Shown piece after piece: positions 26,943 to 38,479 of a stretch of DNA of 64,000 nucleotides; positions within the stretch are counted from its first letter, which is position 1, and each line of letters begins with the position of its first letter. The position numbers and the translations under genes were made by a program. This stretch comes from Kiloniellaceae bacterium (GTDB lineage: Bacteria > Pseudomonadota > Alphaproteobacteria > Kiloniellales > Kiloniellaceae): the NCBI GenBank assembly GCA_009377535.1, contig WHTV01000002.1, forward strand, positions 52,352 through 116,351. The letters run 5' to 3'. The notes under the pieces were generated by a model that had not been told where the DNA came from, did not search any database, and saw nothing but the letters and a program-made list of their open reading frames with translations.

Positions 26943-26958
26943 GCCAGGCCCACCCCTA

Positions 26959-27222
26959 GCCCGGACTTCTCGAACTATGGCGGAGCGTCATCGCGTCAGG
27001 AAGCCCGCTGGGCAGGAGGAGCCCGAAAAGCGTAGCGGAGGCTACGGTTGAGGGCTTCGACGCACCCAGCGGGCTTCCTGACGTGACCCGGAGGGCGGGG
27101 CGCATTTGCCGACAGGCGGCGTCAAGCCGCTCGACCGTATTGCCGATACGCTCTTCGCGTCTTTCCTGGCCTGTCGCCAAATGCGCCTCCGTGACGTCCA
27201 CCATAGTTTGAGAAATCCGGGC
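26959..27222. mobile_element. 264-bp MITE-like structured repeat, copy 1 (flanked by TA on both sides)
   Basis: Terminal inverted repeats gcccggacttctcgaactatgg / ccatagtttgagaaatccgggc; two internal large hairpins; second copy in opposite orientation at 37472..37735. Confidence 0.8.
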
Positions 27223-27569
27223 TATCCGAGCGGCGGGAAGCGATGGCGGCCGTCAGGCCCCAGCGGCAGATCGTCGGCCCGGCGCACCGCCGCCAGAGGC
27301 AGTTCTCCATAGAGGTGCGGGAAGAGGGCGCCGCCGCGCGAGGGCTCCCACTTCAGGGCGGCGCCTAGGGCCGCCGCCTCGACCGTCAGCAGCACCAGAC
27401 CCGTCTGCCCGGCACGGTGCTTGGCGGCACTGACCGCCACCTGGTCGGCAGCGGAGAAGTGGATGAAGCCGTCGGCGCGGTCCTGGGAGGAGCCGGCATA
27501 GCTTCCGGCGGCCTCGGCGGCGGCCCACTCTTCGCGGCGGCAGATATGATAGATGAGGTCGCGATTCAT
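27222..27569 (-). CDS. DUF952 domain-containing protein
   Basis: LIYHICRREEWAAAEAAGSYAGSSQDRADGFIHFSAADQVAVSAAKHRAGQTGLVLLTVEA; 3' end abuts repeat copy 1. Confidence 0.88.
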   Translation of the reverse strand: MNRDLIYHICRREEWAAAEAAGSYAGSSQDRADGFIHFSAADQVAVSAAKHRAGQTGLVLLTVEAAALGAALKWEPSRGGALFPHLYGELPLAAVRRADDLPLGPDGRHRFPPLG

Positions 27570-37362: not shown

Positions 37363-37471
37363 TGTCTTTGCCTCCCGTGTGGCTTGCGGAACTGATACAA
37401 CAGGTTCGCAGAAGGAAGCGCCGCAAGAATAGTCCACAAAGTATAGTTCGGCGAGGCCGCCGAGGGTGCCA

Positions 37472-37735
37472 GCCCGGACTTCTCAAGCTATGGTGGGCGT
37501 CACGGAGGCGAATTTGACGACAGGCCAGGAAAGCCGCGAAGAGCGTATCGGCAATACGGTCGAGCGGCTTGACGCCGCCTGTCGTCAAATTCGCCCCGCC
37601 CTTCGGGTCGCCTCAGGAAGCCTGCTCGGGGCGTCGAAGGCCTCAACCGTAGTCCCTGCTACGCTTTTCGGCCTTCTCCTGCCGAGCAGGCTTTCTGAGG
37701 CGATGACGCTCCGCCATAGTTTGAGAAGTCCGGGC
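37472..37735. mobile_element. 264-bp MITE-like structured repeat, copy 2 (inverted relative to copy 1)
   Basis: Same 264-bp length, same TIRs and loops as 26959..27222 in reverse orientation; right flank TA, left flank CA. Confidence 0.8.
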
Positions 37736-37765
37736 TAGACTGCGGATGCCGAGGAGGAGGAAGCC

Positions 37766-38479
37766 ATGAAGAGCTATGGCCAGTTCTGTCCCGTCGCCAA
37801 GGCCTCCGAGCTGTTCTGCGAGCGCTGGACCCCGTTGATCGTGCGCGATCTGGCCGCGGGGGCGACGCGCTTTTCGGAACTGCAGCGCGGCGTGCCGCTG
37901 ATGTCTCCGACGCTGCTGTCGAAGCGCCTCAAACAGCTTCAAGCCGAGGGCGTGGTGGAGACGCGGCCGGCGGGCAAGGGCCGCGGCAAGACCTATCACC
38001 TGACGGCCTCCGGCCGTGAGTTCGTCCCGCTGGTCATCGCGCTCGGCACCTGGGGCCAGCGCTGGTCTCGCCGCCAACTGGTCGAGGGCGAGATCGACCT
38101 CGGCCTGCTGATCTGGGCCCTGGAGCGCTCGGTGGACGCTAGCGCCTTCGGCAGACCGCAGAGCGTGGTGCGCCTCGAGTTTACCGACCAGCCGAAAGGC
38201 GGCCGCCTGTGGTGGTTCATCAACCGCGATGGCGCCTGCGAGCTTTGCCTGGAGGATCCAGGCTTCGAAGTCGACCTCTACCTCACCGCCACGCTGCCCG
38301 ACATGATCTACATCGTGCGCGGCGACCTGCCGCTGACCCGCGCCCTTTCGACCGGCCGGCTGGAAGCCCACGGCTCCACCCGTGCCCGCAAGGCACTACG
38401 CGCCTGGCTGAACCTCGCCCCCTACACCAAGATCAAGTCGCAGCACCGGCAAGGTGCAGGTCACCCGATACCGAGGTAG
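37766..38479 (+). CDS. HxlR family transcriptional regulator with C-terminal extension (SCP2-like)
   Basis: FCPVAKASELFCERWTPLIVRDLAAGATRFSELQRGVPLMSPTLLSKRLKQLQAEGVVE; C-term about 110 aa extension. Confidence 0.88.
   Translation: MKSYGQFCPVAKASELFCERWTPLIVRDLAAGATRFSELQRGVPLMSPTLLSKRLKQLQAEGVVETRPAGKGRGKTYHLTASGREFVPLVIALGTWGQRWSRRQLVEGEIDLGLLIWALERSVDASAFGRPQSVVRLEFTDQPKGGRLWWFINRDGACELCLEDPGFEVDLYLTATLPDMIYIVRGDLPLTRALSTGRLEAHGSTRARKALRAWLNLAPYTKIKSQHRQGAGHPIPR

Follow-up and report, generated by a model that had tools for sequence, protein, structure and literature searches.

A MITE with IS1380-type ends in a Kiloniellaceae bacterium carries an inverted pair of hairpins whose conserved core recurs across Alphaproteobacteria

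The analysed window, 64,000 nucleotides of a Kiloniellaceae genome (contig WHTV01000002.1), contains two inverted copies of a non-coding MITE, identified as such because its ends match those of an IS1380-family IS, a YTAR target duplication flanks it and one insertion site is empty in congeners. The payload of this element consists of two inverted homologous hairpins (an inverted dimer): hairpin A, when reversed, is homologous to hairpin B, and a covariance model of either kind finds the other. It is reasonably probable that the MITE is served by an IS1380-type transposase in trans and that its inverted-dimer payload acts as a folded single strand. The hairpin family is spread across Alphaproteobacteria and is apparently undescribed; a search of the open-access literature yielded no previous account of it.

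Copy 2 occupies 37471-37738 on the + strand, and copy 1, its inverted copy, occupies 26956-27223 on the - strand. Both are 268 nt long and 91% alike, and besides this pair the window holds no other inverted repeat of at least 60 nt. The earlier note rightly described copy 2 as inverted and equal in length, but its span of 37472-37735 (264 bp) is corrected here, since the target duplication limits the MITE body to 37473-37734 (about 262 bp) between the flanks CCAG and CTAG. The features are as follows, with the basis of each in brackets.

37473-37734, +: MITE body of copy 2, CCCGGACTTCTCA...TGAGAAGTCCGGG (sequence; terminal inverted repeat (TIR) in common with the IS1380-family IS L123; empty site in two congeners)
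37469-37472, +: left flank CCAG, the 4-bp target duplication in degenerate form (sequence; junction tetramers of 37 elements)
37735-37738, +: right flank CTAG, target duplication, CTAA/TTAA at the congeners' empty site (sequence; congener comparison; junction tetramers)
37473-37501, +: left TIR of copy 2 (sequence; fold; outer-repeat search)
37706-37734, +: right TIR of copy 2 (sequence; fold; outer-repeat search)
37508-37525, +: hairpin B, 5' arm of the outer stem, variable sequence (sequence; B-unit covariation)
37526-37576, +: hairpin B, conserved core CAGGA...GACGCC, sense on the + strand (unit alignments; covariation)
37577-37594, +: hairpin B, 3' arm of the outer stem (sequence; B-unit covariation)
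37595-37608, +: linker with a small CCC-TTC-GGG hairpin (fold; linker present in nearly all elements)
37609-37629, +: hairpin A, 5' arm of the outer stem (sequence; A-unit covariation)
37630-37681, -: hairpin A, conserved core GGCGTC...TCCTG, reverse complement homologous to core B (unit alignments; covariation; cross-model matches)
37682-37702, +: hairpin A, 3' arm of the outer stem (sequence; A-unit covariation)
26960-27221, -: copy 1, the inverted second MITE copy, flanks CTAG and CTAT (sequence)
27100-27186, -: hairpin B of copy 1 (sequence; copy comparison)
26992-27085, -: hairpin A of copy 1 (sequence; copy comparison)

The ends CCCGGAYTTCTCA...TGAGAARTCCGGG bound six complete copies in the window's genome, where many contig-end fragments and end-only palindromes also carry them, and they are found in relatives as well. 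The true copy number exceeds the assembled one, because contigs repeatedly break within the element. In the genome G039, from the same taxonomic order, TAGCCCGGATTTCTCA stands at both ends, with CTAG flanks, of a 1694-bp element that encodes a 460-aa transposase matching PF13701 (E 3e-153), which we take, by established naming, to be of the IS1380 family. The ends of the window MITE match those of this IS over 13-16 bp, with identical CTAG flanks. Transposase recognition, one of the roles put forward in the earlier note, is thus upheld for the ends and not for the hairpins. A G039-type IS1380 transposase was found neither in the window's own genome (91% complete) nor in seven congeners; loss of the transposase source is common, and a source in the same genome is no strict requirement for a MITE. 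As in other IS1380-family MITEs, the element is non-coding, multi-copy and intergenic, shares its TIRs with an IS and is flanked by a 4-bp target duplication. It differs from them in that its payload is a conserved, structured hairpin pair that also lies inside many other TIRs.

Among 37 elements, the target duplication was YTAR and mostly CTAG (CTAG/CTAG in 12, TTAG/CTAG in five and TTAA/TTAA in three). The site of copy 2 is empty in the congeners G007 and G004, where it reads GTGCTAAGC or GTGTTAAGC, and the surrounding divergent gene pair, coding for a methyltransferase and an HxlR-type regulator, is kept in both element-free genomes. Within window positions 37363-37766, copy 2 sits between a box conserved in three species, AATAGTCCACAAAGTRTAGTTC, and the start of the HxlR-type regulator gene, and its insertion may have altered the control of this regulator. 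Deletion derivatives, reduced to partial stems or to palindromes of the ends alone (about 46-58 bp), occur in the window's own genome (L022, L025) and in G037 (L128-L130), as would be expected if replication excises hairpins. One copy of the element (L111, JANQQD010000178.1) lies on a contig of a MAG labelled Anaerolineae, which is likely to be binning contamination because the same sample series yielded a Pelagibius MAG. The window element was absent from the plasmids of PLSDB, where one partial match to another subfamily was obtained.

Only one of 38 elements lay within a predicted gene, the others being in convergent (14), tandem (16) and divergent (7) gaps, compared with 22, 61 and 35 such gaps in the background; the gene calls behind these counts came from a simple composition-based script, not from annotation. 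A neighbouring gene receives its stop codon from the element in 15 of 37 cases. Functional placement at stop codons was considered and rejected, since 28 of 135 background CTAG sites also fall at stops, with 48 in genes and 59 intergenic. The choice of CTAG as target, together with the loss of insertions within genes, accounts for this placement with no function needed.

The two hairpins of copy 2 are as the earlier note had read them from the sequence: hairpin B pairs 37508-37525 with 37577-37594 in a perfect 18-bp stem, and hairpin A pairs 37609-37629 with 37682-37702 at 20 of 21 positions, with one G-T. Between the two copies, 25 of 268 positions are different. The claim of at least five two-sided stem changes with pairing kept is borne out by exactly five Watson-Crick cases (37511/37591, 37612/37699, 37623/37688, 37627/37684 and 37640/37672); a sixth two-sided change, at 37517/37585, leaves G.G in copy 1. 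Near-invariance of the loops is true of the loop-B core, whose 51 nt differ only at 37534, but less so of loop A, which differs at 37653, 37655 and 37657. Folded alone as a single strand, copy 2 forms a terminal stem and two hairpins at -114.4 kcal/mol, compared with -51.5 kcal/mol (sd 4.2) for dinucleotide shuffles (z -14.9).

Covariation was then evaluated over many loci. In B units, both partners have changed in 25 of 35 pairs, and the score of 0.459 compares with 0.120 (sd 0.008) for shuffled and at most 0.085 for slid versions. In A units, both have changed in 20 of 33 pairs, with a score of 0.311 against 0.142 (sd 0.009) after shuffling and no more than 0.131 after sliding. These first unit sets were chosen by core pattern or stem pairing, a choice that raises both apparent conservation and apparent pairing. 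In 51 units collected class-wide with a covariance model, all 31 modelled pairs are doubly changed; covariation is 0.828, against 0.199 (sd 0.011) for shuffled and at most 0.230 for slid versions, and the inner stems, helices 4 and 5, are paired in 96 and 99.6% of cells; selection of these units by a core-scoring model inflates these values in the same way, and the shuffled and slid controls model phylogeny incompletely. Covarying stems with conserved loops, as first noticed between the two copies, are thus real in many genera and far above both controls. The core consensus is AGGA-(GNNNNNC)-GMARMG-(stem2)-CGGGG-(stem2')-GKYRA-(GNNNNNC)-GACGC. Within it, loop columns 52/98 and 43/107 alternate between A.G and C.A, columns 55/96 between A-T and C-G, and columns 54/97 between G-C and A-T, while G51.A99, G42.A108 and G56.G95 hardly vary. 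Judged from these columns, the core fits a putative geometry of two tandem G.A motifs flanking a 7-bp stem.

The core-A pattern was found in 67 stretches of GTDB genomes, nearly all from Rhodospirillales-like Alphaproteobacteria. The unit-A covariance model matched 25 of 387 sampled alphaproteobacterial genomes in 22 genera, and class-wide matches are usually inverted pairs about 107 nt apart. In a sample of the phylum, 10 of 399 genomes matched, eight of them alphaproteobacterial and two, with weak matches, from outside the class. These weak matches (L198 in G632 and L200 in G509) lie in small genomes of another class, and L200 is a plausible single hairpin with a terminal repeat of its own. 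Thalassospira lucentensis and the assembly CSMAG_1342 carry the same dimer within very different terminal repeats, and when outer inverted repeats were searched for automatically, about 20 different end sequences emerged around the same payload, nearly all elements being 266 to 282 bp in total; for these end types, the IS1380 match is the only transposase-family assignment. The window's genome itself contains additional dimers, bounded by ends of three other kinds, TAGAGCCTTTC, AGTACCCACTATCAGG and ATACCAAGGGAGG (L178-L185; contigs C283, C247, C55, C122, C297, C304 and C303). One of these three kinds is present as at least 17 ends and in no relative searched. Searches for an autonomous transposon with the TIR TAGAGCCTTTC in 41 relatives, GAGCCTGTTT in 11 carriers and GAACCTATCCCAG in G169 returned only short elements or single ends.

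The inner and outer stems of the hairpins behave differently. On the AGGA...GACGC strand, G-U exceeds A-C by 25:2 in the inner stems (21 loci, six columns), as expected if the fold of that strand itself matters, whereas the outer stems give 27:28, with no wobble bias and no strand indicated; the cells counted are not independent events. In the narrower IS1380 set, the outer stems of A give 44:7, concentrated at a few inherited positions, and those of B give 8:7. The inner cores therefore give the appearance of selection for a folded single strand, which is the best reading for them, and the strand that evolution seems to preserve is probably RNA. G-T is also the most stable mismatch in DNA and tandem G.A forms in DNA as well, so the pattern fits RNA and single-stranded DNA alike. 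The outer arms, with their even ratio, may be kept complementary by arm-to-arm correction at the DNA level or may only need to pair, and one-sided intermediates among sister copies, such as hairpin B of L002, in which one arm is new and the other old, fit both.

The same even ratio and intermediates, along with the existence of deletion derivatives down to bare palindromes, are what would be seen if the elements were neutral palindromes, their arms kept matching as replication switches templates or converts one arm to the other, and their loops alike only through recent ancestry. This account is unlikely for the element as a whole, because between loci of many genera the unpaired core is more alike (0.74) than stem2 (0.68), stem1 (0.50) or the outer stem (0.33), the reverse of loops outdrifting corrected stems, and because neither the 25:2 ratio of the inner stems nor the non-Watson-Crick covariation at internal-loop positions agrees with it. 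The earlier view of a functional hairpin instead of neutral decay is accordingly favoured for the inner cores, while neutrality retains some plausibility for the outer arms. Alternatively, the cores might be the recognition signal of a structure-reading enzyme of single-stranded DNA transposition, the termini being just the outermost, freely changing stem. Such an enzyme would accommodate some 20 terminal repeats around one payload of near-constant length (about 270 bp), the variation of all stems while only the cores and a TA-centred junction recur, and the failure to find a dedicated transposase in most carriers. We regard it as improbable, since the ends of the window's subfamily match an IS1380-family IS over more than a dozen base pairs with the same flanks, the TIR sequence is constant within each genome while the inner stems vary, and the Y1/HUH candidate PF01797 is missing from 17 of 23 carriers.

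That distribution also bears on REPINs, REP doublets mobilised by RAYT, which the earlier note had raised as a parallel. The element resembles them as an inverted hairpin dimer spreading between genes in many copies, but PF01797 (Y1_Tnp) is present in only six of the 23 element-bearing genomes and missing even from the nearly complete, few-contig G169, G383 and G353, no GTAG/GGAG tag was found at the hairpin base in the aligned units, and the hairpins are embedded in DDE-type TIRs with which they move. REPIN/RAYT membership was rejected on these grounds and is very improbable indeed. The suggestion of an ncRNA does not extend to a known family, as no element matched Rfam 15 above any gathering threshold and weak chance matches alone were returned. 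Membership in the retrons, which have a reverse transcriptase next to their hairpin RNA, is unlikely because the copies are dispersed and have no constant neighbour gene.

The only relevant prior literature found concerns CGTC-tagged REPs, which have stems of 8-9 bp that begin with AT, loops of 4-5 nt and CCA tails, form head-to-head (HH) dimers and occur mostly in Alphaproteobacteria (Di Nocera et al., 2013; PMC3733652). In the same report, the CGTC-1 dimers of H. neapolitanus and the GTAG-15 dimers of A. variabilis are located in longer palindromes. The present family shares the alphaproteobacterial bias and the inverted dimers, the antisense strand of its core begins with GCGTC, and a CGTC tag does lie next to the stem, the sense-strand GACGC being kept in at least 45 of 51 units at most positions. 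In contrast, each of its hairpins combines a freely varying 7-bp stem with two internal loops, an apical hairpin and a TCCT end, and has a long outer stem whose sequence varies. Membership in the CGTC REPs was rejected, as the AT-starting 8-9 bp stem, the short loop and the CCA tail of that description are lacking.

The favoured mechanism is that the MITE would be moved through its ends by an IS1380-type transposase in trans and inserted at YTAR, mostly CTAG. The hairpin would act folded and single-stranded, most probably as RNA of the AGGA...GACGC strand, with a putative conserved protein binding the core through two internal loops, tandem-G.A-like, on either side of the 7-bp stem. The inverted units give either strand exactly one sense hairpin, so that the signal would work in whichever direction the element inserts. 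Most likely, it would affect how the surrounding transcript is handled, which might make insertions tolerable and so keep the element in circulation. The long outer arms would mainly hold the cores up as hairpins, their complementarity perhaps arising in part from arm-to-arm DNA correction. A protein-read core in an inverted dimer would explain why loops are conserved and stems free, why wobble bias is confined to the inner stems, and why the pair is obligatory.

A broader possibility, offered tentatively, is that class-wide these mobile elements of about 270 bp conserve only the folded hairpin core, all stems including the transposon ends being replaced over time, and that the core is a new structured RNA or single-stranded DNA motif that has a protein partner of its own and is passed among DDE-type ends that are unrelated. 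MITE interiors are commonly regarded as filler. Here, the conserved part is the interior, a strongly covarying hairpin pair found within about 20 different terminal repeats across Alphaproteobacteria. Because inner and outer stems of one hairpin behave differently, the family is natural material for telling selection on a fold apart from arm-to-arm correction of DNA. If a partner protein is found, it would show how unrelated transposons keep a non-coding structure as cargo.
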